DNA of 64,000 bases from Blastobasis lacticolella. Its lineage: Eukaryota; Arthropoda; Insecta; Lepidoptera; Blastobasidae. The notes under the pieces were generated by a model. The model saw only the letters and a list, made by a program, of their open reading frames with translations. It made no database searches and had not been told where the DNA came from. A program made the translations under genes and the position numbers. Location: positions 4,040,001 through 4,104,000 of the forward strand of contig LR990056.1 in the NCBI GenBank assembly GCA_905147135.1, written 5' to 3'. Below are positions 2,827-63,595 of the stretch, one piece after another. Position 1 is the first letter of the stretch; each line of letters begins with the position of its first letter.

Positions 2827-3107
2827 ACGGTATTGCAAGCAACCCTGGACTATTAACAGTGTACCACAAGGCGTGCACTACTTTTGCTATCTTAGTGGAA
2901 TAAATATTTCGCCCTCATTGGAGCTGGTTACGATGAGTCACGCGTCGAAATTCCCGAATTAGCGTTACTCACCTACAGCAGGGGGAACGGTTTAATATCC
3001 GCAAGTCACGGCCGGCCATGGAGTCGTACATCGCACCAAAGTTATTCAAATGTCCTATTACGAATCGACCGATATCGTGGCCGTCGCTTCCTTAAAAATA
3101 CAGAGTT

Positions 3108-5076
3108 TTCCTTGACGCATTTTTCTGATCGGGATGTCAAATCGAGCATCACTGCCATTACGTCCAACTCCGTTGGTAGTGACTGCGTCAGTCGTGCGAT
3201 GATCCTGCCCATTCTGGATGTCATTTTGCCGGTAGTTACCCATATCCTCAATTTTTCCGTAGAATCTGGTGTTTTCCCTGATGCCTGGAAAAACTCTCAT
3301 ATTATCCCCTTGCCAAAGAAATCCAATCCATCATCACTATCAGACTACCGTCCTATCTCCATACTTCCTTTCCTATCCAAAGTCCTTGAACGCCTTATCC
3401 ATCGCCAACTCCTCTCCTACCTAGCTGAACACAAACTGCTTAATTCCTTCCAGTCTGGTTTCCGCGCTGGCCATAGCACAGTTACGGCATTGACTAAAAT
3501 TTCCATGACATTCGGCAGGGCATGGAGAATCGCATGTTGACAGTTCTTACGCTACTCGATTTCAGCAGTGCCTTCAACACTGTTGACTTCGACATACTGT
3601 TAGCCATCTTGGGGTCACTCAATTTATCATCGTCTACAATAGATTGGTTCCGCAGTTATCTTAACGGTCGTCGGCAGCGTATCAGAATCGAGGATCAGGA
3701 GTCAAACTGGTCATGGACTGGCTCTGGAGTTCCGCAGGGAGGCGTGCTCTCCCCTCTCCTCTTCGCGATTTTTATTAATTCCATCACTCAAGATATTAGC
3801 TCGTATTACCATCTATATGCCGATGACCTTCAAATATACAAGCAAGCACGATATGATGACCTTGCGGAGGCAATAGCGTGTACGAATAAAGACCTAAATA
3901 CCATCCTAGATTGGAGCTGTAAATACGGGCTCAAGGTTAATCCAGACAAAACACAGACTATTATTATTGGAAGTCCTTACTTTATCTCAAAGATCGATTT
4001 TACGGGGCTGCCGCCAGTCTGTTTTAACAATATACAGATACCATTTAGCAAAAAGGTTAAGAATCTGGGTGTTTACTTTGATAATACACTTTCTTGGGGT
4101 GACCAGCTTACAGACGTGAGCAGGAAAATCTACGCTGCCTCGAAATCACTTAAACGACTTCGAAACTTTTTACCCACTTCCACGAAGATTGCGCTTGCTC
4201 AGGGTCTCCTACATCCCATCCTTGATTATGCAGATTGCTGCTACCCTGACATCACGGCTGAACAGTACGGCAAAGTGGAGCGCCTCCAAAACATGTGTAT
4301 TAGGTTCATATTCGGTTTACGTAAATACGACCATGTGTCGGAGTACCGTAAACAGCTCATGTGGCTGCCGGTCCGCTTACGTAGGGACCTTCACATGCTT
4401 TCCCTTTTATATGCGGTACTATTCAATCCCATTACTCCATCCTACCTTAAGGAACGTTTCCAGTTTCTATCTTCCTCTCACTCCCTTCCCCTCCGCTCTT
4501 CTGATAATTTACTCCTTAATATTCCTCTTCACTCATCTAATTTCTATTCCAAATCTTTTACTGTCCAGTCGATTAGATTGTGGAATTCATTGCCTGTGGA
4601 CATCCGACTAGCCAAAACTGCACCATCTTTTAAAAGGCTGGTTAAAGCTTATCTTCTACAGTCTGTCCCATAAGCTTCTTCAAGTCTATTGCTTCTCATA
4701 ACTCTTGTTGGGTTATAACCTTATATGTTTGCTATACTCGTATATCATTCCAGATAAACCTTACTCTCTTCTATTCTGTTTTTAAATATGTATTTATAGT
4801 ATTATGCTAGGTATATAAATTTATCTATAGTTTTATTAGTATTAATTAAAATTACACCACTATGTCTTTTTGTTGAACGGGCTTACTCTCAGCCTATTTC
4901 CTTATCATGCACTTCTGTCAACAGTTAACTACCCAAAAAGGTTGCCTGGAAGAAATCGCTTTAAGCGATAAGGCCGCCTGTTGCTTCTCCTGCTGTTAAT
5001 TTAAGTTACCCATTGTATACTTTTGATTGTGCAATAAAGCGTTATTCATTCATTCATTCATTCATTCATTCATTCA
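3108..5076 (+). mobile_element. CR1/Jockey-group non-LTR retrotransposon, 5'-truncated
   Basis: The element consists of a reverse-transcriptase region (to the stop at 4671-4673), a 3' UTR of about 370 bp and a terminal ATTC microsatellite at 5043-5075. The 3' UTR includes the block GGTTGCCTGGAAGAAATCGC and AATAAA shortly before the tail. The tetranucleotide tail and the RT sequence argue for the CR1/L2/Jockey group rather than RTE. The endonuclease half is missing, so the copy is truncated at its 5' end somewhere near 3060-3110. No target duplication could be defined. Confidence 0.82.
3112..4673 (+). pseudogene. LINE reverse transcriptase, one frameshift
   Basis: The protein shows the ordered motifs of a LINE reverse transcriptase: DYRPISILPFLSKVLERL, then QSGFRAGHST, LLDFSSAFNTV, GVPQGGVLSPLLF, and the catalytic YADD at 3816-3827, followed by the thumb region and a C-terminal LWNSLP segment. 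Reading starts in one frame (3112 to about 3503) and continues in another (from about 3505). A single missing base near 3503-3506 explains the break, because the alternative frame continues the expected alignment without a gap. Apart from that indel, no stop interrupts about 520 codons, so the insertion is fairly young. It would not make a functional enzyme, because the endonuclease domain is absent and the frame is broken. Confidence 0.85.
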
Positions 5077-18935: not shown

Positions 18936-19591
18936 GCCATCTATTACAGTTATTAGAACAATTTTTTTCTTTTTAATCGGCTCTCGAAAAATACGAACAG
19001 AATACAGGATAAATAAATCTATCAGTGACGAAAGCGTCTTAGCTTATCTGCGAAATATAATACGTATATAGAGGACCGAAAATACCATAGACCAATTATA
19101 TACGAACTAGGAGTATGGCCATCGTGTTTGTAAATTTTGAACGCAGCTGTAAGAACTGCTATTTCCGGTATACAATATCTTACTCATTTATCTTAATTTA
19201 CAAAGTTATATTAAATAAGCATAATATATTAGAAAAATAAATTATTTTAATATTTTTTGTTAGTGTATTGTATGCAATTGTAGAGTAAAATGTTTGTAAT
19301 CACTTTAAAAGAAGTAGAGTTGTATCAATTACGAAAATGGCGGAAACAATGATGGCGTCTGTTTCTTTTTGGCATGTCACAACAATCTATAGTCGTCTCT
19401 TTTTATCTCATGGTTAATGCCATTTGGTAGGAGGCACGCGTAGTGATCAATATGTCCACGTGACCCGTCGTCAAGTCGCGACTCGCGTAATTGCTTGCAA
19501 AGCAAAGCAAAGTGCAAAATGTGTAGAAACGTTGCGTTACAATGAAATCATAATATTATTTTCATTTATTCGTAGTGTTATAGGTTTTAAA
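18936..19591 (+). promoter_or_regulatory. PPM1D-like 5' flank and leader
   Basis: This stretch contains no repeats I recognise. The reading frame of the first coding exon stays open upstream of the chosen ATG to 19424, but that extension (residues like VGGTRSDQYVHVTRRQ) has no family counterpart and is probably 5' UTR. The promoter is not identifiable by eye. Confidence 0.35.
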
Positions 19592-22500
19592 ATGCCTGCA
19601 TCAATTGGTGTTAACTTACGTGTTACTGGCCATTGTAGCCAAGGCGGGAGAAAGTACATGGAAGATTTGTTTTCCGTTGCCTATCAACAAACCGAAGATG
19701 AGAGGGATTTGGAGTACGCTTTCTTCGGGATTTATGATGGACACGGAGGCAGCGAAGCAGCGGCCTTCGCCAAGGAGCATTTGATGGACTCTATAGTGAA
19801 GCAAAGGCAGTTTTGGTCTGACAACGATGAGGACGTTCTAAAGGCCATTAGAAATGGTTACATGATGACCCACTTGAACATGTGGAAAGAATTAGGTAAA
19901 CATCTATTTTGGTTTGTCAACAAGTATTTTCGTGATATGTCGTGCTATAATTTTGCCTGGTTTTGGTTTTGTGGCAGCCTAGCACAAGTGATTGTATGAA
20001 TTGGCCTGACCTTGTAGCTTGAAGCTCATTATTTTTTCACACAGTGTTTGACATTGAATCAACAAAAGATTTTCAAATGGTACCTGTTTTTGCAAGACGT
20101 TTTTATGTATTCGCAGATGACACTGCAAGTATAGGTAATCATGGTTAATATTTCCTGTGAATCCCACTCACTACTAAGTGAAAGCAGTCTTACCAGTTTC
20201 AGCGGCCAGTTTACTCTTACAAAAATTTGGGGATTTTTATAAGGCCATACTTTATAATGAGCTCACAACTGCAAAACTGTCCTAAAGCAACAAAATGACT
20301 TTAAATAGCCTCCAGTACAGTACAAAATATCCACTATAATATGTATATTGCTCATATAGGCTAAATTGTCTACTACAATATTAAGTTCCATTTTATTAAG
20401 TCGACATAACTTTTTTCCCACTGCAATTCATGACTTGCCACTATAGAAAAGCAGTAGTACAAAAAAAACTTTTCAATAACATATCGCTTAACATTGTTGC
20501 TCGTATAGGCTGGGATCCATATTCTATTTTGCCCATTTTCGTTGTTATAAACATGAGCTTGTTGTGGAATTTATCCATGTTTGTACAATGTTGGTAGCTT
20601 AAAAACTGACATGTCTCATATCTCGTATGCGATATAATACCTCACATGATGATGATAACAACTTCATTCCAAGATTTGAAATTTGAACTGACATACTCTG
20701 TTTTTTACATTGGTAGACCAAGTTTTCATAATAATGAATTCAAGTGAAAGTCACTATAAAGCCTTTGCTGAGTTGTTGACATCGTTAGCTTTAATAAGGA
20801 CAATTTTATGAGTTATATATGTGACGACAGTGACAGGGAAACAAGTTCTGTAATAATTATTACTAAAGTTCCAATACTATAAACAATTAAATCAATATTT
20901 ACACATTTTTTTATTAAATTGTTACTAATCATTGATTAATGTTGTATGTACTTTTTTTTTAGAAAAATGGCCTAAAACGGTAACAGGTCTACCCAGTACA
21001 GCGGGGACAACTGCAAGTGTTGCATTCATTCGTCGTGGCAAAATATATATTGGCCATGTTGGGGATTCTGCTATTGTTCTTGGCTACCAAAAGGATGGTA
21101 TGTATTATTTTTGTTTATCCTTTTCCTAGCTAGCCAACAGTCAAAATAACTTTAATTAGACACAAGTAATACTAAAATTGAAAAGTATGTGTTGTACTTA
21201 GTTATAAGTCTAATATGACTTTTGTCAAATAATTACTTAAACATTTTGCTGCAAACTGGTCAGCGGAACATTATTTGTTTGACATTCAATTATAAACCAA
21301 CAAAAAAAGTTAAATTTAGCCCAGGGTGTAAGTCTGCTAATTTAGATAGCTGATATAGAGAGCTGTTAACTAATTTAAGTAAATAAATAATTAAAAGCTT
21401 AAGGGACTGCATAAACTCATTTGAGTAATAAGAATAATCATATATTGGTCATTTAGGTACATTTTTAGTTACATTATATAGGTACACTGAGTAACAAAAT
21501 GCCGAAACGGTTCCAGATGGATTCCAGATAAGGGGATGTTTATTGTATAAAACATGTACATAATTTCTACTAAGAAGGCAATACCCTATAATCGTCAATA
21601 ATAAAATTTGAAAGAATGTGATGTTTGAGTGTGGATAGATTTATTTGTGACATAATAAATGATCCATTGTTACACAGACTGATGTAGATGGATGACAAAA
21701 CTTGACCATATCTTAGCAAGATATACTCCTCACAGGATGATTGATTGTGTATTGTGTGGTGTGGTAAACTGAAAAAATTACGTATTGATACATTTATGGT
21801 ATTATTCATAAAAATTATTTGATATTAAACATAATTTAGGAAAAAAAACTTTAGTTTATAATGATTACTGACATGATTGAAATTGGAAAAGTGTAAATTT
21901 TCATAAACATCAAATAACTTTTTATGAATAGACAGTTAATGTTAATGTTTTGAATGTTCCTTTATGAAGTATTTATAATTTAATTCAACCTATAAATACA
22001 CTGAGACTAGTTTCATTATTGATTTTTTTATTTTATTTTCAGATAGTGATGAATGGGCAGCCAAGGCTCTCACAGCTGATCATAAGCCTGAATCAACGGC
22101 AGAAATTGAACGTATCCAGCGTTGCGGAGGCAAGGTGGTCGCCAAGGCTGGAGTGCCTCGAGTCGTGTGGAACAGACCGCGGCTTGGGCACAAAGGTCCT
22201 ATAAAGAAAAACACACCAATGGACGAGATACCATTCCTGGCTGTGGCAAGATCCCTTGGAGATTTGTGGAGCTACAACCCACATAATGATGAGTTTATAG
22301 TCAGCCCGGACCCTGATGTCGGCGTTCTGACTATAGACCCAACAAAGTTTAGGTAAGGTTCGCTCAAAGCATTTATTGCTTTACACCAGACAATATTTTG
22401 ACAGAAGACACCATATCGACCTAGTCAAAACCAGTATAAACAGAGCTAACATTGCTATGCGCATCTATAGAGACGATAGTTCATATTATACTGGTTATGG

Positions 22501-25098
22501 AGGTATGTTGTCTTCTGTAAAACATATTGTCTGGCGTAAAATTATCGTGTTGAAGAAATTATTTAAATACAAAGCTAATCATTGTTTTATTGGCTATCAA
22601 ACCGCGAAAACCGAATTGAAATCGATTAAACTCTGTTCAATGAATGAAAATCAAATAGTAATCGGGACTTTTACTTGTGTAAACGCAAAATGTCAGACGA
22701 TCACAAAATGTCCATTATTGTGCAGGACATTTTGCGAATGGGTCATTTTGCGCCTAAACGATTTTACTAGAGAAATCTTTGAAAGAGTCATTATGGAAAA
22801 GGGATCTTTTGCGAAGGCTTCAGACTCTTCAGTCATTTTTAACTAAACAGTGCGATTATAAATTGTGCACAAATCCTAATATGTATCTGTAACCAACTAA
22901 ACACCTACATCGACATTGACAATCCACCAACATTTATTCCAGGTGTCTAATATTCGGAACGGACGGCCTCTGGAACATGATAACGGCTGACGGCGCGGTG
23001 GCGTTGGTGCAGGCGACGGAGCGACACAACGAGGCAGCGTTGGTGGGAGGCGGGGCCCAGCCCCGGGACTGGCTTAACCCGTCTAAGAGTCTCGTGGATC
23101 ATGCGTTGGAGAGGTGAGAGTTACCATCAGTTTAGTACCGGTGGTGGTGGTAGTCTGGGAGGGTCATCAAGTTACTGGGTTACCAGGTTACCACCGCTTG
23201 TGGTGATAGTCTGGCAGGGGTACGACTGGGAAACTGTGTTTTAATGCTGAATTTGGAACATTTATAATGCAGGATAGTGATAATGAAAATTGATTTTGTT
23301 TGTTTGGGATAAACAATCTTATAAGTATTACATAGATCAACGTATCATCGTTACAAAACATATCTACGTATGTTCCCTAATTCTAATGCTAATTTTTATT
23401 TCGAGCTTATAGAAACCAGTTAAATGTGAAATTAGTCAATTTTTATCCTCTTAGAACAAATATTGAATGTTCCATTTTGTCTCGTGCAGATGGTCGACGA
23501 CTCGCATGCGCGCGGACAACACATCCGTGGTGACGCTGATGCTGGACCCGCCCGGGCCGCCGCGGGCCACCGTGCTGAGATCCCGCAGCGCGCACCGGCC
23601 CACGCCCGCACCCGTGCCCGCGCCCGCCCGCCCGGAACGCACCGAGCGCGCCGACCGCCCGGAACGCGACGACCGTCACCTGCCGCAGAACGGGCTCACT
23701 ATCATGACGCGCTACTCGGACGTCGACCGGCCCGGGCCGCCCGCCGCGCCCGCAGGGCCCGCAGCGCCCGCATCGCCCGCGCCCGCGCCCGACGCGCCCG
23801 ACCGCACCCCCCTGCCGCCGTGCGCCACCCTCGACGGCCGGTTCTCCATCGGCCCGCAGGACGACGCCCCCAAGCCCGAGGAGGCCGAGGACGCCGACGC
23901 GATCACCAACTACGGCAACCCCCAGGAGTCCTACTTCATGGCGCGCGTGCTGAACAGGAGCCGCGTCGTCAACACGCTGTCGGACGTGTTCGAGCAGGGC
24001 GAGAGCGCGGCCTCCCGCGCCGGCTCCGAGGCGCGGGCCTCGCCCCCGCCCGCCACCGAGCTGCCCGACCTCGGCGACGCCGCCGCGGACGCGCCCGTCC
24101 CGCCCGCCCCGCCCGCCGGGGACGACGGCGACGCGCCGCCCCGCGCCGAGCCCGAGAAGGACGGCGGCATTCAGATCAACGAGGTGTCCTCCAGCTCGCC
24201 CGTCGAGGCGCCGCCGCGGGCGCGGGGCAGGCGGCCGCGCTCCGAGGCGCGCCGGGAGCCCGCGCCCGCGCCGCCTGACCGCGTGCTGCGCTCGCACGAC
24301 GCCGACGCCCCGCAGCGGCCGCAGACCCGGCAGGCCGCCACCCGCGGGGCCGCGCGCGCCCCGCCCGCCGCCGCGCCCGCCCCCGCTGCCCCCGCCGCCG
24401 CTGCGCCCGCCACAGCCGCCGCGCCGGCGCTCGAGCGCGTCGTCATCCTGAGCCGGCGGCCCGAGCGGCCGGCGCCGCGGCGCGCGCCCGAGCCGCCCGA
24501 GCCGCCCGCGGCCGCCACGCGCTCGCACCAGCCGCCGGCCGCCGTGGCCGCCGCCGGCGCCGCGCTCGCGCAGAAGATCACGCGCAGCATCACGTCGGTG
24601 GCGCGCGCGGTGGGCGGCGGCCGCGCGGGAAACGCGGCGCGCGCCCCGGGCCCGACGCGGCGGGCGCCGGCGGCGCGCCGGGAGCCCAGCCTGGGCTGCA
24701 AGGAGAACCTGGCCGGCGGGCGGCGACGCGCCCGCGCGCCCGCGCCCGCTCCGGGGCCGGCGGCGGCGGACGCGCGCCCGCGGCCGCGCCGCGCGCCTAG
24801 CGCCGAGCCCGAGGTGCACTCGACGACGCCGTGCGGGCCGCCGCCGCCGCCGCCGCCGGTGGAGCCGCCGCGGCCGCGCGCGCTGCGGTCGCGCAACGAC
24901 GCGGAGCAGCCGCCGCTGGCGGGCGGCAAGCGGCCGCGGCCCGCGGAGCCGGCGCCGGCGGCGGGGACGGCGGGGACGGCGAAGGCGCCCAAGCTGGGGG
25001 CGGAGCGCTGCGTGCGCGCGCTGGGCAAGCGGGCGTCGGGCCCGTGGGCGCCGGCGCTGGCGCTGCGCAACCGCCTGCGCCGGCGACTCGCCAAGTAG
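19592..25098 (+). CDS. PPM1D: PP2C-family Ser/Thr phosphatase, PPM1D/Wip1 type
   Basis: Five exons, 19592-19895, 20963-21097, 22043-22352, 22943-23113 and 23490-25098, splice in consistent phases at GT..AG sites and encode 842 residues. The start ATG at 19592 places QGGRKYMED at residues 17-25, as in human Wip1. Metal-binding residues are visible: D25, D49-G50 (YDGHGG), D136 (HVGDS), D257 (GTDGLWN) and D316 (ADNTS). The phrase [18 protein letters not shown] and the basic B-loop ([13 protein letters not shown], followed by [13 protein letters not shown]) are specific to PPM1D. Wip1 dephosphorylates p53, ATM-pathway and p38 substrates (T/S-Q and TxY sites) in the nucleus in mammals. The long proline-rich insert of human Wip1 before DGHGG is absent. 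After about residue 325 comes a Pro/Ala/Arg-rich tail of about 520 residues with very high GC, ending in a basic [10 protein letters not shown]. Introns hold no coding exon. Confidence 0.94.
23560..25095 (+). other. GC-extreme low-complexity C-terminal tail of PPM1D-like protein
   Basis: This part of exon 5 is built almost entirely from C/G-ending codons for Ala, Pro, Arg, Gly and Asp. Both strands therefore stay open in several frames for hundreds of codons. The surrounding introns and 3' flank are AT-rich. An LRSR/LRSH motif recurs at residues 336, 573 and 772. A basic cluster (GKRPRP near residue 785, [10 protein letters not shown] at the end) could be nuclear localisation signals. It is probably intrinsically disordered. 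Confidence 0.75.
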
Positions 25099-26782
25099 CG
25101 CCCTAGTGTAGTAGTGTGAATTGCGTTATATGGTTACCTGTGAGTGCGGGGTTATCGGTGCCTTCTAGTACTGCCAAAGTACTGTTTGTCGTTTCATATG
25201 TTTATTCCGCCGGGTTCGCCGGCTCTCCGGTTACGGGATCCAAAGATGACTGCGTTGTATACGGTTAAATTTCTGTTGTTGTTTTTTTAACTCGTCCGCC
25301 CTGATAGTTGTAGGTCTCAGTTCGATTTCTTTGTATGTTAAGTGTTTAGCTCCACTTATGAAGTCGCGCCGCGGCCGCCGCGGGCGCGCGCGCTGTCGTA
25401 GGTCACTGTTGACGGTAAACAATAGTACAAAAGAGTTTATTGAATTATCACATAAGGTTAAATCGTGGACCAGTCGGATTAAATAGCCCAAATAGAGAAT
25501 TTATCTACGTACATATTTATAGCTATCGATTGCATTTATCTTAAGGCAGAAAGTTACATGAAAATTCGATTTTCACTTTGACTCCAACAGTAGAGGCTAC
25601 ATTATTATATCAATCAATATACATAATTGGAAGTCATTAAGTGTCCAAAATTCTAAACCTTTGGGGATATTGTTAACTATGTAAAAATAATTTACGTTAT
25701 TATAAAATAATATTAGAAAATTATGGATACCAAGAGTGCTTTTCTAAATTTAATTAGTGCTTTAATGATTATTGTACAGTCTCACTTAGTTGTTACTGCA
25801 GTTATTTCTCGATAATGTTCTTTTTTCTGTAAGTAAAGTGACTATCAGAAGGGTTATTCTTTTTCGAAAAGAAATGTATTATGAGGACTTCATATAAGTT
25901 TATATTATTATACAATATTTACGGAAATGTCTGAATGGGCCTATGGATATCAATGTTTATGATGACAATAGGCACCAACAGTAACAGAGGGGTCAATTCC
26001 ATAAATACACATTTCAATTGGTGATACCAATGAACCCGTTGATACATTACAGTTATGTTAATATTAATCCTGAATGAATTTAGTTACAGTTTTGTAATTA
26101 TCAAATCCAAGTACAGTGTGCTCGCTCACCCACCTCAAAAGTTATTGTTAATATTAAAATGCACCTTATATTGTTACTTTTTAACTTTGTGATGACGAAA
26201 CCATTGATATGCTATAATAACCAAAAATTAATAGCACTATAGTTTTGTAATCAAAGTAGTAGCTGCCGCATTCAAAGTACTTGAACTCTGAAATAATGTA
26301 ATTTTGATTATAGAACCATAATGATTATGATGATGTTACATAAAAGTTAGTAATGTGATTATTACAGTGATATCTACATGCATAAAGTTCTTCCAAGTTC
26401 ATTTTCATACCAATTCAGTGTATGCTAGTAGCTGTTTAGAAATTTCATACAATTAACAGCTGTAAAAAAAACTGATGTAACATGTCATTGTTAAATACCT
26501 ATAAGACAATGTGAACCATAAACTGACGTTGAACCTAAGAATGGACTGAAGATAAGCTTAATATTGTGTAGTTATTAGTTAATGCCCCAAGTGAGTATAT
26601 TGTAAATGAATTACCCATTGAGTACATTCGTTTTTAAACAAAATGTACTGAAAGGGTAGTCTACGTGATGCGGTGTTTGAACGCCGCATACTCGATTGCG
26701 ACAAATAACAATTCAAAAGCATGTTACTGGGAATCATTGATCATCGTAAACTAAGGTCTCTTATTGATTTTTACAATACTAA

Positions 26783-30224: not shown

Positions 30225-30232
30225 CTTATTGA

Positions 30233-32267
30233 GGGTCTTTAGTCGTTTCGCACCGCGACCGGTTCGGACCGCGGTGCGAATCGACCAAAGACTGTTTCTG
30301 AATGGGGCCATTCGCACCGCGTGGTTGGAGCGGTGCGAATGGCCCAAGGTATCTTTTGGAATGGGTCGATTCATACCACCAATGTTCTTTTCGTAGGTCC
30401 GATTTGGACTCATATCAAAAATTTGTTAATTTTAATTATTCATTTGTACAGATGAGCAGAAAAGTGGTTAGTGAAGATGCAATATAATAGATACTTAAAT
30501 TTTGTTTTAATATAGATTTTAAACGTGGCATAATCACAGATTGAGTACTAACTGTCTTTGTACAACAAGATAAACATATGTTGGGCAAAAATGATTCCGA
30601 AATAATACACACTTGTTTTAGCACTTACCTATAACAAGTGTATATTATAATATGTAGAGGAAAGTAACCAAATATGGAATACCATTTTGTTTTTTGAATA
30701 TAAAAAATAAACTATTCATAGTACGAAGTAAATTTTTTTATTAGATGAGAAGATATAATGTACTGCAACACTTAGTGATAGTCTTATGATTTTATTAACT
30801 ATTTAGAGTATCAAAAACCTAGTTAAATCAAAAAATGAAAAAGGTAGTCAAATATGGAATAGGTACCCCAAATATGGACCAATAGAAAAAGCCACAACAA
30901 ATACTTAAAAATATGATAAAATAATGTTTTGTAATACTTAATAACAGTCTCATCATTTACTAAATCGGTTTAGTAGTTGGACTAGTTTAACTAGGTTAAC
31001 ATAATCATAAGACCTATTGCAAAAAAATCAAGATTTAATAAAAATAAAAATAGGTGCATATGAAATTGGACATAGTGACCCCCGGGTGGTCCCCGTATCT
31101 TAAGTTATCCGTCCTATCTAATATATAACATAGATAACATTTGGTGCAAATCGATTCAGCTGGCTTAAATCTTAAAAATAAGTATTTGCTGTTTGTAAAA
31201 CAGCTTTTCTTAAAGCTTTGTATGAAAAATGCTGTTTACCAACCGCAAATCACAATAATAGTTTTTATGTTATAAATCGGATTTGGATATCGGATATTTT
31301 TCTTTATTTTTTGCGTTAGAAAGCTTTCTGAAAAATAAATATGAACACATTAAAAGTATACATTAAACCATCAATTTAGATTTTGACCCGAATATAGAAT
31401 ATTCCATAAGTGGATCCCAGTGCTTGTTCATATTTGGAATTTAATGACCTCAGAAATTATTGCCAATATTAAAATAATTACAAAACAGAAACAAATAAAC
31501 TGCCTGGAAATACAAGAACTAGTATATATGCAACCACATAAATATGCTAGTAGAACGTTATCACTCTCTAAATAATAAGAAATACATCGTTTTTACGTCT
31601 ATTAAAATGTTCTGAGCAGCAACCAAACAAAACGCACATGCCATGTCACCGGCCTTCGCCCTACTGACAAGATTGAACCTATACACGTCTAATATAAGTA
31701 TATGAAACAGAATATGGTTCTGTATTGCGATTAAAATTATTATTTTCGAAGAAATAAAGGAATTCCATATTTGGACCCTATTCCATATTTGGTTACTTTC
31801 CTCTATCATTTTTGTTCAACAGATGTTTATCTTGTTTGGTGTAACATGGTAATGGTTTTAATCACAGCTTATTATATACTTATAACTAGGTAATCATTGA
31901 AAATCACAGGCGTAAAATTTTTAAAATCAACAATGTTAAAATACTTGTAAACAATAATTTTATATTGGACGAAAAATTTAGGTAGTGGGCTTATTACTTA
32001 ATGTAACTTATAAATTATTTAGTGTTTCCTGTTATTTTGTGCCTGGTTGTACTATAGTGACGTGCAATAAAACTACATATCTCCTCTGTCCGAATTCACC
32101 TATCCCAAAAGAGAACTGTTTTGTTCTTCATTGCGGTCCGAATCGACCCATTACAAAAAGTTCTTGGGCGATTTGCACCGCGGTGCGAAAGGACCCATTC
32201 AGAAAGAGCTCTTGGGCGATTCGCACCGCGGTCCGAACCGCTCGCGGTGTGAATCGACTAAAGACCC
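30233..32267 (+). mobile_element. Array unit 1
   Basis: First unit. It is preceded by the intact duplication CTTATTGA and followed by the spacer CTTATT at 32268-32273. Its internal layout is TIR arm about 30233-30405, flank, nested MITE 30657-31803, flank, and TIR arm about 32085-32267. Confidence 0.9.
30657..31803. mobile_element. Nested Tc1/mariner-like MITE, present in every unit
   Basis: Inverted repeats GAGGAAAGTAACCAAATAT, continuing for about 24 bp, terminate this 1,147-bp segment. It is bounded by TA dinucleotides at 30655-30656 and 31804-31805, the target signature of Tc1/mariner elements. AAATATGGA motifs recur inside both ends. The same element lies 2,041 bp further on in each later unit (32698, 34739, 36780, 38821). 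It holds only a short minus-strand frame (complement of 31561-31809) with no known homology. It inserted before the array was amplified. Confidence 0.78.
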
Positions 32268-32323
32268 CTTATTGGGTCTTTAGTCGTTTCGCACCGCGAC
32301 CGGTTCGGACCGCGGTGCGAATC
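32218..32323. repeat. Junction palindrome between units 1 and 2
   Basis: Two 50-bp arms with three mismatches surround the CTTATT spacer, so 106 bp can extrude as a cruciform or form a long RNA hairpin. Weaker complementarity extends further into both units. Equivalent palindromes occur at 34259-34364, 36300-36405 and 38341-38446. Confidence 0.88.
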
Positions 32324-34308
32324 GACCAAAGACTGTTTCTGAATGGGGCCATTCGCACCGCGTGGTTGGAGCGGTGCGAATGGCCCAAGGTATCTTTTGG
32401 AATGGGTCGATTCATACCACCAATGTTCTTTTCGTAGGTCCGATTTGGACTCATATCAAAAATTTGTTAATTTTAATTATTCATTTGTACAGATGAGCAG
32501 AAAAGTGGTTAGTGAAGATGCAATATAATAGATACTTAAATTTTGTTTTAATATAGATTTTAAACGTGGCATAATCACAGATTGAGTACTAACTGTCTTT
32601 GTACAACAAGATAAACATATGTTGGGCAAAAATGATTCCGAAATAATACACACTTGTTTTAGCACTTACCTATAACAAGTGTATATTATAATATGTAGAG
32701 GAAAGTAACCAAATATGGAATACCATTTTGTTTTTTGAATATAAAAAATAAACTATTCATAGTACGAAGTAAATTTTTTTATTAGATGAGAAGATATAAT
32801 GTACTGCAACACTTAGTGATAGTCTTATGATTTTATTAACTATTTAGAGTATCAAAAACCTAGTTAAATCAAAAAATGAAAAAGGTAGTCAAATATGGAA
32901 TAGGTACCCCAAATATGGACCAATAGAAAAAGCCACAACAAATACTTAAAAATATGATAAAATAATGTTTTGTAATACTTAATAACAGTCTCATCATTTA
33001 CTAAATCGGTTTAGTAGTTGGACTAGTTTAACTAGGTTAACATAATCATAAGACCTATTGCAAAAAAATCAAGATTTAATAAAAATAAAAATAGGTGCAT
33101 ATGAAATTGGACATAGTGACCCCCGGGTGGTCCCCGTATCTTAAGTTATCCGTCCTATCTAATATATAACATAGATAACATTTGGTGCAAATCGATTCAG
33201 CTGGCTTAAATCTTAAAAATAAGTATTTGCTGTTTGTAAAACAGCTTTTCTTAAAGCTTTGTATGAAAAATGCTGTTTACCAACCGCAAATCACAATAAT
33301 AGTTTTTATGTTATAAATCGGATTTGGATATCGGATATTTTTCTTTATTTTTTGCGTTAGAAAGCTTTCTGAAAAATAAATATGAACACATTAAAAGTAT
33401 ACATTAAACCATCAATTTAGATTTTGACCCGAATATAGAATATTCCATAAGTGGATCCCAGTGCTTGTTCATATTTGGAATTTAATGACCTCAGAAATTA
33501 TTGCCAATATTAAAATAATTACAAAACAGAAACAAATAAACTGCCTGGAAATACAAGAACTAGTATATATGCAACCACATAAATATGCTAGTAGAACGTT
33601 ATCACTCTCTAAATAATAAGAAATACATCGTTTTTACGTCTATTAAAATGTTCTGAGCAGCAACCAAACAAAACGCACATGCCATGTCACCGGCCTTCGC
33701 CCTACTGACAAGATTGAACCTATACACGTCTAATATAAGTATATGAAACAGAATATGGTTCTGTATTGCGATTAAAATTATTATTTTCGAAGAAATAAAG
33801 GAATTCCATATTTGGACCCTATTCCATATTTGGTTACTTTCCTCTATCATTTTTGTTCAACAGATGTTTATCTTGTTTGGTGTAACATGGTAATGGTTTT
33901 AATCACAGCTTATTATATACTTATAACTAGGTAATCATTGAAAATCACAGGCGTAAAATTTTTAAAATCAACAATGTTAAAATACTTGTAAACAATAATT
34001 TTATATTGGACGAAAAATTTAGGTAGTGGGCTTATTACTTAATGTAACTTATAAATTATTTAGTGTTTCCTGTTATTTTGTGCCTGGTTGTACTATAGTG
34101 ACGTGCAATAAAACTACATATCTCCTCTGTCCGAATTCACCTATCCCAAAAGAGAACTGTTTTGTTCTTCATTGCGGTCCGAATCGACCCATTACAAAAA
34201 GTTCTTGGGCGATTTGCACCGCGGTGCGAAAGGACCCATTCAGAAAGAGCTCTTGGGCGATTCGCACCGCGGTCCGAACCGCTCGCGGTGTGAATCGACT
34301 AAAGACCC
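32274..34308 (+). mobile_element. Array unit 2
   Basis: Second unit, apparently identical to unit 1 by inspection and by conservation of all open frames. It is followed by the CTTATT spacer at 34309-34314. Confidence 0.9.
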
Positions 34309-34314
34309 CTTATT

Positions 34315-36349
34315 GGGTCTTTAGTCGTTTCGCACCGCGACCGGTTCGGACCGCGGTGCGAATCGACCAAAGACTGTTTCTGAATGGGGCCATTCGCACC
34401 GCGTGGTTGGAGCGGTGCGAATGGCCCAAGGTATCTTTTGGAATGGGTCGATTCATACCACCAATGTTCTTTTCGTAGGTCCGATTTGGACTCATATCAA
34501 AAATTTGTTAATTTTAATTATTCATTTGTACAGATGAGCAGAAAAGTGGTTAGTGAAGATGCAATATAATAGATACTTAAATTTTGTTTTAATATAGATT
34601 TTAAACGTGGCATAATCACAGATTGAGTACTAACTGTCTTTGTACAACAAGATAAACATATGTTGGGCAAAAATGATTCCGAAATAATACACACTTGTTT
34701 TAGCACTTACCTATAACAAGTGTATATTATAATATGTAGAGGAAAGTAACCAAATATGGAATACCATTTTGTTTTTTGAATATAAAAAATAAACTATTCA
34801 TAGTACGAAGTAAATTTTTTTATTAGATGAGAAGATATAATGTACTGCAACACTTAGTGATAGTCTTATGATTTTATTAACTATTTAGAGTATCAAAAAC
34901 CTAGTTAAATCAAAAAATGAAAAAGGTAGTCAAATATGGAATAGGTACCCCAAATATGGACCAATAGAAAAAGCCACAACAAATACTTAAAAATATGATA
35001 AAATAATGTTTTGTAATACTTAATAACAGTCTCATCATTTACTAAATCGGTTTAGTAGTTGGACTAGTTTAACTAGGTTAACATAATCATAAGACCTATT
35101 GCAAAAAAATCAAGATTTAATAAAAATAAAAATAGGTGCATATGAAATTGGACATAGTGACCCCCGGGTGGTCCCCGTATCTTAAGTTATCCGTCCTATC
35201 TAATATATAACATAGATAACATTTGGTGCAAATCGATTCAGCTGGCTTAAATCTTAAAAATAAGTATTTGCTGTTTGTAAAACAGCTTTTCTTAAAGCTT
35301 TGTATGAAAAATGCTGTTTACCAACCGCAAATCACAATAATAGTTTTTATGTTATAAATCGGATTTGGATATCGGATATTTTTCTTTATTTTTTGCGTTA
35401 GAAAGCTTTCTGAAAAATAAATATGAACACATTAAAAGTATACATTAAACCATCAATTTAGATTTTGACCCGAATATAGAATATTCCATAAGTGGATCCC
35501 AGTGCTTGTTCATATTTGGAATTTAATGACCTCAGAAATTATTGCCAATATTAAAATAATTACAAAACAGAAACAAATAAACTGCCTGGAAATACAAGAA
35601 CTAGTATATATGCAACCACATAAATATGCTAGTAGAACGTTATCACTCTCTAAATAATAAGAAATACATCGTTTTTACGTCTATTAAAATGTTCTGAGCA
35701 GCAACCAAACAAAACGCACATGCCATGTCACCGGCCTTCGCCCTACTGACAAGATTGAACCTATACACGTCTAATATAAGTATATGAAACAGAATATGGT
35801 TCTGTATTGCGATTAAAATTATTATTTTCGAAGAAATAAAGGAATTCCATATTTGGACCCTATTCCATATTTGGTTACTTTCCTCTATCATTTTTGTTCA
35901 ACAGATGTTTATCTTGTTTGGTGTAACATGGTAATGGTTTTAATCACAGCTTATTATATACTTATAACTAGGTAATCATTGAAAATCACAGGCGTAAAAT
36001 TTTTAAAATCAACAATGTTAAAATACTTGTAAACAATAATTTTATATTGGACGAAAAATTTAGGTAGTGGGCTTATTACTTAATGTAACTTATAAATTAT
36101 TTAGTGTTTCCTGTTATTTTGTGCCTGGTTGTACTATAGTGACGTGCAATAAAACTACATATCTCCTCTGTCCGAATTCACCTATCCCAAAAGAGAACTG
36201 TTTTGTTCTTCATTGCGGTCCGAATCGACCCATTACAAAAAGTTCTTGGGCGATTTGCACCGCGGTGCGAAAGGCCCCATTCAGAAACAGCTCTTGGGCG
36301 ATTCGCACCGCGGTCCGAACCGCTCGCGGTGTGAATCGACTAAAGACCC
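34315..36349 (+). mobile_element. Array unit 3, variant right arm
   Basis: Third unit. It is the only one with visible differences: C instead of A at 36275 and C instead of G at 36288, both in the right terminal arm. Both changes make this arm identical to the complement of the left arm over about 18 bp. The CTTATT spacer follows at 36350-36355. Confidence 0.9.
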
Positions 36350-36355
36350 CTTATT

Positions 36356-38390
36356 GGGTCTTTAGTCGTTTCGCACCGCGACCGGTTCGGACCGCGGTGC
36401 GAATCGACCAAAGACTGTTTCTGAATGGGGCCATTCGCACCGCGTGGTTGGAGCGGTGCGAATGGCCCAAGGTATCTTTTGGAATGGGTCGATTCATACC
36501 ACCAATGTTCTTTTCGTAGGTCCGATTTGGACTCATATCAAAAATTTGTTAATTTTAATTATTCATTTGTACAGATGAGCAGAAAAGTGGTTAGTGAAGA
36601 TGCAATATAATAGATACTTAAATTTTGTTTTAATATAGATTTTAAACGTGGCATAATCACAGATTGAGTACTAACTGTCTTTGTACAACAAGATAAACAT
36701 ATGTTGGGCAAAAATGATTCCGAAATAATACACACTTGTTTTAGCACTTACCTATAACAAGTGTATATTATAATATGTAGAGGAAAGTAACCAAATATGG
36801 AATACCATTTTGTTTTTTGAATATAAAAAATAAACTATTCATAGTACGAAGTAAATTTTTTTATTAGATGAGAAGATATAATGTACTGCAACACTTAGTG
36901 ATAGTCTTATGATTTTATTAACTATTTAGAGTATCAAAAACCTAGTTAAATCAAAAAATGAAAAAGGTAGTCAAATATGGAATAGGTACCCCAAATATGG
37001 ACCAATAGAAAAAGCCACAACAAATACTTAAAAATATGATAAAATAATGTTTTGTAATACTTAATAACAGTCTCATCATTTACTAAATCGGTTTAGTAGT
37101 TGGACTAGTTTAACTAGGTTAACATAATCATAAGACCTATTGCAAAAAAATCAAGATTTAATAAAAATAAAAATAGGTGCATATGAAATTGGACATAGTG
37201 ACCCCCGGGTGGTCCCCGTATCTTAAGTTATCCGTCCTATCTAATATATAACATAGATAACATTTGGTGCAAATCGATTCAGCTGGCTTAAATCTTAAAA
37301 ATAAGTATTTGCTGTTTGTAAAACAGCTTTTCTTAAAGCTTTGTATGAAAAATGCTGTTTACCAACCGCAAATCACAATAATAGTTTTTATGTTATAAAT
37401 CGGATTTGGATATCGGATATTTTTCTTTATTTTTTGCGTTAGAAAGCTTTCTGAAAAATAAATATGAACACATTAAAAGTATACATTAAACCATCAATTT
37501 AGATTTTGACCCGAATATAGAATATTCCATAAGTGGATCCCAGTGCTTGTTCATATTTGGAATTTAATGACCTCAGAAATTATTGCCAATATTAAAATAA
37601 TTACAAAACAGAAACAAATAAACTGCCTGGAAATACAAGAACTAGTATATATGCAACCACATAAATATGCTAGTAGAACGTTATCACTCTCTAAATAATA
37701 AGAAATACATCGTTTTTACGTCTATTAAAATGTTCTGAGCAGCAACCAAACAAAACGCACATGCCATGTCACCGGCCTTCGCCCTACTGACAAGATTGAA
37801 CCTATACACGTCTAATATAAGTATATGAAACAGAATATGGTTCTGTATTGCGATTAAAATTATTATTTTCGAAGAAATAAAGGAATTCCATATTTGGACC
37901 CTATTCCATATTTGGTTACTTTCCTCTATCATTTTTGTTCAACAGATGTTTATCTTGTTTGGTGTAACATGGTAATGGTTTTAATCACAGCTTATTATAT
38001 ACTTATAACTAGGTAATCATTGAAAATCACAGGCGTAAAATTTTTAAAATCAACAATGTTAAAATACTTGTAAACAATAATTTTATATTGGACGAAAAAT
38101 TTAGGTAGTGGGCTTATTACTTAATGTAACTTATAAATTATTTAGTGTTTCCTGTTATTTTGTGCCTGGTTGTACTATAGTGACGTGCAATAAAACTACA
38201 TATCTCCTCTGTCCGAATTCACCTATCCCAAAAGAGAACTGTTTTGTTCTTCATTGCGGTCCGAATCGACCCATTACAAAAAGTTCTTGGGCGATTTGCA
38301 CCGCGGTGCGAAAGGACCCATTCAGAAAGAGCTCTTGGGCGATTCGCACCGCGGTCCGAACCGCTCGCGGTGTGAATCGACTAAAGACCC
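36356..38390 (+). mobile_element. Array unit 4
   Basis: Fourth unit, matching units 1, 2 and 5 at the two sites that vary in unit 3. The CTTATT spacer follows at 38391-38396. Confidence 0.9.
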
Positions 38391-38396
38391 CTTATT

Positions 38397-40431
38397 GGGT
38401 CTTTAGTCGTTTCGCACCGCGACCGGTTCGGACCGCGGTGCGAATCGACCAAAGACTGTTTCTGAATGGGGCCATTCGCACCGCGTGGTTGGAGCGGTGC
38501 GAATGGCCCAAGGTATCTTTTGGAATGGGTCGATTCATACCACCAATGTTCTTTTCGTAGGTCCGATTTGGACTCATATCAAAAATTTGTTAATTTTAAT
38601 TATTCATTTGTACAGATGAGCAGAAAAGTGGTTAGTGAAGATGCAATATAATAGATACTTAAATTTTGTTTTAATATAGATTTTAAACGTGGCATAATCA
38701 CAGATTGAGTACTAACTGTCTTTGTACAACAAGATAAACATATGTTGGGCAAAAATGATTCCGAAATAATACACACTTGTTTTAGCACTTACCTATAACA
38801 AGTGTATATTATAATATGTAGAGGAAAGTAACCAAATATGGAATACCATTTTGTTTTTTGAATATAAAAAATAAACTATTCATAGTACGAAGTAAATTTT
38901 TTTATTAGATGAGAAGATATAATGTACTGCAACACTTAGTGATAGTCTTATGATTTTATTAACTATTTAGAGTATCAAAAACCTAGTTAAATCAAAAAAT
39001 GAAAAAGGTAGTCAAATATGGAATAGGTACCCCAAATATGGACCAATAGAAAAAGCCACAACAAATACTTAAAAATATGATAAAATAATGTTTTGTAATA
39101 CTTAATAACAGTCTCATCATTTACTAAATCGGTTTAGTAGTTGGACTAGTTTAACTAGGTTAACATAATCATAAGACCTATTGCAAAAAAATCAAGATTT
39201 AATAAAAATAAAAATAGGTGCATATGAAATTGGACATAGTGACCCCCGGGTGGTCCCCGTATCTTAAGTTATCCGTCCTATCTAATATATAACATAGATA
39301 ACATTTGGTGCAAATCGATTCAGCTGGCTTAAATCTTAAAAATAAGTATTTGCTGTTTGTAAAACAGCTTTTCTTAAAGCTTTGTATGAAAAATGCTGTT
39401 TACCAACCGCAAATCACAATAATAGTTTTTATGTTATAAATCGGATTTGGATATCGGATATTTTTCTTTATTTTTTGCGTTAGAAAGCTTTCTGAAAAAT
39501 AAATATGAACACATTAAAAGTATACATTAAACCATCAATTTAGATTTTGACCCGAATATAGAATATTCCATAAGTGGATCCCAGTGCTTGTTCATATTTG
39601 GAATTTAATGACCTCAGAAATTATTGCCAATATTAAAATAATTACAAAACAGAAACAAATAAACTGCCTGGAAATACAAGAACTAGTATATATGCAACCA
39701 CATAAATATGCTAGTAGAACGTTATCACTCTCTAAATAATAAGAAATACATCGTTTTTACGTCTATTAAAATGTTCTGAGCAGCAACCAAACAAAACGCA
39801 CATGCCATGTCACCGGCCTTCGCCCTACTGACAAGATTGAACCTATACACGTCTAATATAAGTATATGAAACAGAATATGGTTCTGTATTGCGATTAAAA
39901 TTATTATTTTCGAAGAAATAAAGGAATTCCATATTTGGACCCTATTCCATATTTGGTTACTTTCCTCTATCATTTTTGTTCAACAGATGTTTATCTTGTT
40001 TGGTGTAACATGGTAATGGTTTTAATCACAGCTTATTATATACTTATAACTAGGTAATCATTGAAAATCACAGGCGTAAAATTTTTAAAATCAACAATGT
40101 TAAAATACTTGTAAACAATAATTTTATATTGGACGAAAAATTTAGGTAGTGGGCTTATTACTTAATGTAACTTATAAATTATTTAGTGTTTCCTGTTATT
40201 TTGTGCCTGGTTGTACTATAGTGACGTGCAATAAAACTACATATCTCCTCTGTCCGAATTCACCTATCCCAAAAGAGAACTGTTTTGTTCTTCATTGCGG
40301 TCCGAATCGACCCATTACAAAAAGTTCTTGGGCGATTTGCACCGCGGTGCGAAAGGACCCATTCAGAAAGAGCTCTTGGGCGATTCGCACCGCGGTCCGA
40401 ACCGCTCGCGGTGTGAATCGACTAAAGACCC
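38397..40431 (+). mobile_element. Array unit 5
   Basis: Last unit. It is followed directly by the complete duplication CTTATTGA at 40432-40439 and then by unrelated sequence. Confidence 0.9.
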
Positions 40432-40554
40432 CTTATTGACTTCCACAGAAGATTTCGTCCTTTTCTGTGGTTGTAACTTATGGTTACTATGGTGTTTTCT
40501 AGATCACACATCAACAGCTGCGCATTTAGCCTCATTCACATTAGTGGAGGGTTT

Positions 40555-62448: not shown

Positions 62449-63595
62449 GTCGAGGAGGTTATGCAGCAAAAGGCGCCGGGGGCGCCTCATAGCTACAGTT
62501 TACAGTAAGTAAAATACATAACTAATAATTCGCAATTTTAAAAAACCCTATTTGCAAATTTCAATTTGTTATTAAAATATTCATTTACAATGGTTGCGAT
62601 AGCCTAAATAGGTACTTAAACGAAACACTAGCGCCCTCTAAAGTTATTCCGATGAACGTGTTAGTTTTGCAAATGTTCGTCGGAGGGCGTTTCGTCGATA
62701 AGACACTAACGCTATTTTCACTCCGTTGTTCATCGGGGATATAGCTCAGTGGTAGAGCATTCGACTGCAGATCGAGAGGTCCCCGGTTCAAACCCGGGTG
62801 TCCCCTGACTTTCGTTTTTTTTATTTTTTCTTTAGCTTTTCGAATGACTTAATTTAAACGTAATAATTTTTTGTTATTTTTGTAAGTAAAATTACTATCT
62901 GTTAAAATATTTTAGGCAACCACAAGACTCCAATTCTCAGTATCGGAAAGGATTCTCGGCGAATTTCTTCAAGGCAACCTTCAGTTCTCGCATAAAGGCG
63001 GTGCCAGCCGCCTCGTCCTCTTACAAAGTTGAAGAAGTTACCAAAATAGGCAGCGCGGAGACGAAACCTGTAACTAGAAATAGACCTAGGCCTGGTAATA
63101 TTTTTATCGTATTTTATTTTCATTCTACATGCTTATTATAAATCAGCTACGTATTTATTTTAGTCTTGATATCAAAATGTCGGGAGATGGTATAATAATA
63201 ACCATGTTTCATTTGTGTTTTATTTTAGCGTCGGATATCGAACCCACTAGGTTAAGACCAAAAAGAATACTTTCGAGCAGGCCAACGGTCAAAAAACCTG
63301 ACAAACCTGCTACAGAAGCTGCAAAAAGGAGTGCGCCTGATCCTGAACCGAAGCCTGTCGAACGAGCTAGAACTCATGACTTGAAGAGTCCAAAAGTTGT
63401 CCTGCAAATTGTTAAAAAGTCATCCGCACCATTAGCACCACAGTCGCAAGAATACGACTCAATATTACCGCCAACTTTAAGACCAAAACCAATTGAGAAA
63501 TCCAAACTGAGAGTGACGAAAAATATCAACAACAATGACATTATCGTAACTGAAAGCAAAACTAGAACCAGACCCATTTCCACGTTGCAGCTGAG
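62449..63595 (+). CDS. Unrecognised multi-exon gene, partial at the right edge
   Basis: Three exons, 62449-62504, 62916-63094 and 63229-63595, join in consistent phases (2, 1, then 2) at GT..AG sites and leave about 200 codons open. The first has an internal ATG at 62461 that could start translation (MQQKAPGAPHSYSLQ...). The protein is rich in Lys, Pro, Arg and Ser (for example TKIGSAETKPVTRNRPRP and RSAPDPEPKPVERARTHD). It has no hydrophobic core, signal peptide or domain that I know, so it is probably disordered. The last donor GTGAGT at 63596 shows that it continues beyond the window. Candidate upstream exons at 42904 and 49270 end in phase 1. That phase would run into TAG at 62488 in the first exon, unless the G5 run at 62478-62482 is one base too long. 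Confidence 0.7.
62735..62806 (+). tRNA. tRNA-Cys: tRNA-Cys (GCA)
   Basis: The 72 nt form a canonical cloverleaf: acceptor stem GGGGATA/TGTCCCC (one G-U pair), D arm GCTCAGTGGTAGAGC, anticodon stem-loop TTCGA-CTGCAGA-TCGAG with anticodon GCA at 62767-62769, T arm CCCGGTTCAAACCCGGG, and discriminator U as in eukaryotic tRNA-Cys. The Pol III boxes are intact and a T-run follows at 62813-62820. It lies on the sense strand inside an intron of the unrecognised gene. Confidence 0.96.

Follow-up and report, generated by a model that had tools for sequence, protein, structure and literature searches.

Array of five units in the window

In the genome assembly of the lepidopteran Blastobasis lacticolella (GCA_905147135.1, 577,033,349 bases in 45 contigs) a stretch of 64,000 nucleotides was analysed, which is called the window here (G000:C17:4040001-4104000, contig LR990056.1). 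It contains a tandem array of five copies of a composite DNA transposon, the outer part of which is a non-autonomous Mutator-like element (MULE), and the joints between the copies suggest that a first joint was made by a transposase at this site and was then amplified in place. The five units of 2,035 bp start at positions 30233, 32274, 34315, 36356, and 38397 and follow each other at an exact period of 2,041 bp, so that the original prediction, which had been made from the letters of the window and had described these units with their inverted termini, was correct to the base. The same prediction had placed CTTATTGA once on each outer side of the array, where it indeed occurs, and the only third copy in the window, with both strands checked, is at 26760. 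All four internal spacers are the 6-bp sequence CTTATT, i.e. bases 1-6 of the 8-bp duplication, and GA, the two bases which would adjoin the following unit, is missing from each joint. Four of the units (1, 2, 4, and 5) have one and the same sequence, from which unit 3 departs at two bases. The features of the array are, in positions of the window:

30225..30232, forward strand: left outer target-site duplication CTTATTGA
30233..32267, forward strand: unit 1, 2,035 bp, non-autonomous MULE with nested TA-inserting element
30233..30372, forward strand: left arm of the terminal inverted repeats in unit 1, length about 140 bp, containing GCGGTGCGAA-type subrepeats; recurs at +2,041 per unit
30657..31803, forward strand: nested 1,147-bp element GAGGAAAGTAACC..., between the two copies of a TA duplication, belonging to a dispersed family; recurs at +2,041
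32140..32267, reverse strand: right arm of the terminal inverted repeats in unit 1, length about 128 bp; recurs at +2,041 per unit
32128..32413, unstranded: near-palindrome across joint 1, composed of the right repeat, the 6-bp spacer, and the left repeat
32268..32273, forward strand: joint 1, CTTATT, the target duplication without its GA (6 bp)
32274..34308, forward strand: unit 2, same sequence as unit 1
34309..34314, forward strand: joint 2, CTTATT
34315..36349, forward strand: unit 3, two differences, both within the right terminal repeat
36275..36288, forward strand: unit-3 substitutions 36275 A>C and 36288 G>C, in a presumed copied tract of 14-18 bp
36350..36355, forward strand: joint 3, CTTATT
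36356..38390, forward strand: unit 4, same sequence as unit 1
38391..38396, forward strand: joint 4, CTTATT
38397..40431, forward strand: unit 5, same sequence as unit 1
40432..40439, forward strand: right outer target-site duplication CTTATTGA

A second array and genome-wide search for joints

A second array was found at C6:5782254-5787545. It consists of six units of 877 bp which lack the nested element and show no difference in 6 x 877 bp. In genomic orientation GATTTATG stands on both sides of it and all five joints read GATTTA, six of the eight bases of the outer duplication as at C17. The units of this array are inverted relative to those in the window, and when both are read in the orientation of the element the six joint bases at C17 adjoin the right end, those at C6 the left one; therefore either end can be the recipient. 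The two arrays are built from units of different subfamilies and lie on different contigs, the nearest single copies being L036 at 0.9% and L053 at 1.3%, and the second array is to be regarded as independent of that in the window. Both thus have one geometry, an 8-bp outer duplication with joints of 6 bp (four of four and five of five), and the short spacer from one flank between abutted ends which characterises the IS256 type of circle or dimer is found, with 6 bp, in each of them.

Scanning the whole genome for exact 12-bp ends abutted at a distance of 0-30 bp yielded nine joints, the four at C17 and the five at C6, and no other. When up to three mismatches were allowed, ten sites had a spacing of 6 bp and none in the genome a spacing of 8 bp. 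As a control the exact ends of the nested TA family were scanned, and no abutted joint was seen.

The tenth 6-bp site belongs to the copy at C16:7458534-7459339 (joint at C16:7459328), which has the left duplication AAAATCAC and on its right side AAAATC, GGGTC, and AC. This copy looks like a collapsed dimer, the second unit of which was lost leaving five bases. Less certainly the same may hold for L050 on C21, where the left duplication GTATTTTT is matched on the right by GTATTT, G, and GTATTTTT, so that the remnant would be a single base. For L074, the right flank of which reads TAAAAT, GGGTC, TAAAATTGGG and the left flank of which ends in TAAAATTTT, a collapsed dimer is a tentative interpretation which requires a 9-bp duplication and leaves one mismatch. 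Among 26 copies, a set outside which the C16 copy falls, L074 alone has GGGTC/GACCC within 12 bp of its end, at offset 6.

Composition of the unit

Each unit is a composite of an outer non-autonomous MULE of about 886 bp (by subtraction) and a nested TA-inserting element of 1,147 bp, which occupies positions 425-1571 of the unit. The nearest copies of the outer element without the nested one are 887 bp long. Its inverted termini, GGGTCTTTAGTCG... and ...CGACTAAAGACCC, match at 80% over 140 aligned columns and form long, imperfect terminal repeats with GC-rich subrepeats inside. The left arm matches at least 45 places in the genome, 11 of which are the units of the two arrays; 40 of 67 candidates were scored in this search, so that the counts are lower bounds. 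A comparison of the terminal repeat with viral contigs gave no match.

Insertion of the nested family at TA is shown by four copies of the surrounding element which lack it. Unit positions 423-1573 match this dispersed family at 40 or more places, mostly at 91-96%, in a whole-genome search that scored 39 of 225 candidates, did not have the window's own array among them, and again gives lower bounds. No protein was found within the nested family, and several CCAAATATGG motifs lie close to its ends. In the outer element the two frames of at least 80 residues had no Pfam match and no transposase was found; the reading frame spanning the junction, used as a protein probe for other arrays, scored no protein.

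Assignment to the Mutator-like elements

A coding relative is located at C7:17947383-17949813. This copy of 2,431 bp has the same ends as the unit and is flanked by CCTTAGCA and CCTTTGCA, and its open frame of 248 amino acids contains the MULE domain PF10551 (E=1e-7, 32.7 bits at a cut-off of 27.6). Twelve protein relatives were found, of which those from Plodia interpunctella, Spodoptera frugiperda, Spodoptera exigua, and Helicoverpa zea, all moths, can be named; three of the named moth relatives carry PF10551 and two of these three also PF04500. L049, which is part of the coding C7 copy, aligns with the unit at 1-419 (95%) and at 1572-1707 (98%). The final 27 residues of the transposase persist in the 906-bp copy L046 (C4:2244590), which is a deletion derivative because this remnant remains inside it, and the same 27 residues occur near element ends at C28 and C22. 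The original prediction had spoken of a DNA transposon in general terms, and with the domain, the derivation of the short copies, and target duplications of the 8-9 bp range in the single copies and in both arrays the outer element is a member of the Mutator-like elements.

Membership in the hAT superfamily was considered and rejected. The 8-bp duplications of Hermes have the form nTnnnnAn (PMC2803484), which fits only three of the 22 perfect duplications of the single copies described below.

A second, degenerate copy of the transposase was seen at C13:17788257-17789324, with 88% identity over 160 residues and one stop, adjoining a partial copy of the element. Right-type ends without a nearby left end were noted at 11 places among the matches listed (e.g. 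C1:11427261, C3:1642171, C14:15850575, and C30:29367031); four of these were read, and after 66-203 bp in common with the family their sequence departs from it, which may point to a sister subfamily or to truncated copies.

Target duplications of single copies

Both flanks were read for 31 single copies, a non-random sample obtained from the searches. A perfect 8-bp duplication was present in 22 of them and seven of eight bases were retained in one more. The remaining eight comprise three copies sharing 4 bp only, one 6-bp scar, two weaker candidates for such a scar, and two (L072 and C27:4577729) with no recognisable duplication. The three with 4 bp, L043, L048, and L051, have CTAG, TTAG, and ATTA as the only bases shared flush with the ends, and look as though 4 bp had been removed from the start of the right duplication. 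In none of the 31 copies do 6 duplicated bases directly adjoin the element on both sides.

Unit 3, palindromes, and age of the array

The arms differ at ten of their first 89 columns, and the two changes of unit 3 fall on two of these in the right terminal repeat; both copy the base which faces them in the left arm. The adjacent differing columns on either side are unchanged, therefore the copied tract should measure 14-18 bp. All 25 single copies with data at these sites (L052 is gapped there) and the C6 unit have the state of the other units at both positions, and because of this the state in unit 3 is taken as derived. The chance that two random substitutions both copy the opposite arm is about 1e-5. 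The terminal repeats joined across a spacer form a near-palindrome; as DNA, joint 1 folds at -133.6 kcal/mol, whereas 200 shuffles average -48.9 (sd 3.7). Joints 2 and 4 give the value of joint 1, and joint 3 reaches -140.0 kcal/mol. Template switching which equalises the arms of inverted repeats is described as a type of mutation in the literature consulted, and the sequence change in unit 3 is plain, while its cause was presumably such a switch at the palindrome which the joint had created.

Apart from these two arm-copying changes no substitution is present over 5 x 2,035 bp (10,175 bp). With 2.9e-9 substitutions per site per generation the last homogenisation would date to less than about 100,000 generations ago. 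The original prediction had described the array as a very young satellite. The youth is upheld by the two changes being the only ones, whereas the term satellite, which implies long homogenised tandem arrays, is not borne out by what the assembly shows, namely one array of five and one of six units genome-wide, with the qualification that arrays may have been collapsed or omitted by the assembly.

Origin of the first joint

The interpretation which we favour, and regard as probable though well short of certain, is that the first joint was made by transposase at the site and that amplification in place followed. A non-autonomous MULE with the nested TA element already aboard inserted once and gave rise to the 8-bp duplication, as the anatomy of the array shows. 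MULE transposase acting in trans would then have linked an end of the element to the flank at a point 6 bp past its other end, and from the geometry of the joints the product would be right end, 6 bp, and left end in a row. Such a joint might form within one copy, as a circle which recombined back, or between sister copies, as a tandem dimer. Unequal exchange or rolling replication would subsequently have multiplied the single joint along the array, and one rolling event or several exchanges may have brought the number of units to five or six. The joined terminal repeats form near-palindromes of about 280 bp, and in that of unit 3 replication probably switched template from one arm to the other. 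That the array arose where it now stands, and was not inserted ready-made, is concluded because the C17 joints are the first 6 bp of the local duplication. A transposase is invoked for the joint because the geometry fits the relatives of IS256 type, and because repair, slippage, and double insertion predict products which are not seen (joints that vary in length or measure 8 bp, or single copies with flush 6-bp duplications), although two arrays are a small basis for this. The original prediction had likewise proposed one insertion amplified in place, which the origin of the spacers (six of eight bases from the site's own duplication) supports; the 6-bp joints, the nested element, and the MULE identity had escaped it, and taken together they make another mechanism likely for the first joint.

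The strongest of the alternatives, to which we assign a minor but appreciable probability, dispenses with a transposase. Imprecise end joining by host repair, or replication slippage from one copy of the duplication to the other, would lose 2 bp, and unequal crossing-over would amplify the product. Unequal exchange is a standard path to tandem arrays, and a spacer that is a trimmed duplication with everything in place is what such repair would leave. Yet the identical loss of 2 bp would have to be assumed for both arrays and for the likely collapsed dimer at C16, and the bases shared at the joint points (1, 0, and 1 bp) offer no common microhomology as a guide. Slippage between the duplications should produce 8-bp joints, of which the genome scans found none, and plain unequal exchange between the duplications, which predicts them as well, is disfavoured for the same reason.

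It is less probable again that a second copy, oriented like the first, inserted flush with it by a 6-bp stagger within the old duplication, and that the resulting dimer expanded by unequal exchange. Such an event would yield E-CTTATT-E-CTTATTGA, with E for the element, and tandem double insertions of other DNA transposons have reportedly been described by McGurk and Barbash in 2018 (cited in PMC12368964). This explanation nevertheless needs an uncommon stagger, an offset of zero, and a matching orientation to coincide on two occasions, in a family in which perfect 8-bp duplications are the rule among the single copies and a flush one of 6 bp is absent; an ordinary 8-bp insertion at an offset of 2 bp would have left two extra bases past the last unit, and these are absent.

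Very improbable is a multimer that formed elsewhere, for instance as a multimeric circle, and was inserted as one piece, which the original prediction had allowed as an alternative. It would likewise give a single outer duplication and identical units, but the spacers should then carry the letters of the donor site, whereas in both arrays they are pieces of the local target duplication, with a chance of about 2 in 4,096 each. Equally slight is the probability that the assembly misrepresents alleles with fewer or more units: near-identical units of 2 kb are difficult to count, but a 6-bp joint unlike the outer flank should presumably come from reads, unit 3 in the middle of the array has marker bases of its own, and the C6 array repeats the same geometry. 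Five independent insertions are ruled out by the single outer duplication, as had been predicted.

Several points weigh against a transposase-made joint. The fixed length of 6 bp rests on two founding events together with one good and two weaker collapsed sites, and if spacers were distributed uniformly from 0 to 8 bp the coincidence of 6 bp in two arrays would have a probability of about 1 in 9. The spacer lengths reported for the bacterial relatives are non-uniform, so that the chemistry itself tolerates values other than 6 (PMC7780238). A second MULE family (L097, L098), the ends of which are unconfirmed by a duplication, gave no abutted joint. In nine of the 31 single copies the 8-bp duplication is imperfect or absent, which indicates that flanks in this family are altered in other ways too. 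Finally, the C7 copy of the transposase may differ from the active source, and circle, dimer, and transposase reaction are here deduced from the sequence.

A wider proposal can be put forward tentatively, and the chances are rather against it. Animal MULEs might use a copy-out mode similar to that of IS256, with the arrays as by-products of a single burst in which replication runs repeatedly round a figure-eight or circle made by the transposase and closed by the 6-bp bridge. The joints, being at once palindromes and ready substrates for the transposase, would then let arrays grow and also collapse, leaving scars of 6 bp plus GGGTC.

Other features of the window

A very GC-rich region with long overlapping open frames and no Pfam match extends from 23467 to 25098. 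One of these frames, with a long tail rich in proline, alanine, and arginine, probably encodes the C-terminal part of a PPM1D-like phosphatase, the PP2C exon of which is located at 19418-19999. At 2896-4673 a reverse transcriptase (PF00078) is split across two overlapping frames, presumably of a broken non-LTR element. The sole Rfam match in the window is a tRNA-Cys with the anticodon gca at 62735-62806.

Comparison with known systems

Muta1 and other MULEs of insects resemble the present family in their long terminal repeats (145 bp in Muta1), subterminal repeats, 8- or 9-bp duplications, and many non-autonomous derivatives, but tandem arrays or end-to-end joints do not figure in the portion available (PMC5225508). 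In Arabidopsis the ends of neighbouring VANDAL21 MULEs react with each other by alternative transposition, which yields rearrangements and circles; there the DNA between a head-to-head pair is circularised, and a tandem array of a single element is not described in the text available (PMC12312487). Arrays of non-autonomous MULEs, for which circular intermediates have been proposed, are known for the SaTar MULEs of guayule, where however unrelated elements are arrayed at microsatellites instead of one element being repeated (PMC5907723).

Outside the MULEs, tandem copies of a transposable element at one locus are found with the hAT miniature elements (MITEs) at inversion breakpoints of cod and with the transposable element of the peppered moth (PMC12368964). 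The cod elements differ in superfamily, and the term 'target site duplication' does not occur in the text of that source available here, so that joints are not compared in those words. Episomes of Hermes and other hAT elements are circles of insect DNA transposons as well, but belong to another superfamily, and those tested have 0 to 120 nucleotides between the ends instead of a fixed 6 (PMC2803484). The case of Tetris and the TIR-220 satellite in Drosophila virilis involves a DNA transposon with 8-9 bp duplications which feeds tandem arrays; there an internal repeat of 220 bp is amplified, and here the whole element with its ends (PMC4079207). Within the portions available of the literature on tandem MULEs, circles, copy-out transposition, and arrays born from transposable elements, 6-bp joints derived from an 8-bp duplication were not encountered for an animal MULE.

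A 6-bp joint derived from an 8-bp duplication is a signature for which any genome can be scanned, and one which offers a means to separate tandem copies made by an enzyme from those made by repair. The arrays represent a concrete first step from a transposon to a tandem repeat.

The formation of circles or end-to-end joints during transposition 'might be a unifying feature' of the superfamily; related circles contain 6-10 bp taken from one flank and, among eukaryotes, circles are named for Mu1/Mu1.7 of maize and for a MULE of Kluyveromyces lactis (PMC3942029). IS30 forms tandem dimers between copies, and one unit can be lost from such a dimer (PMC9333248). The transposases of IS256 and the MULEs are similar; circles of IS256 have spacers of 5, 6, 7, or 19 bp formed by attack of either end, and ISCth4 of the same family has 8-bp duplications and joints of 6-8 bp, of which those with a 6-bp spacer integrated best (PMC7780238). 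Unlike these bacterial elements, the present case concerns an animal with arrays of five and six non-autonomous copies, the joints of which are known from sequence alone. What the arrays share with the dimers and circles of IS256 and ISCth4 are the 8-bp duplications, the short spacer derived from either flank, and a transposase of the similar MULE type (PMC7780238).

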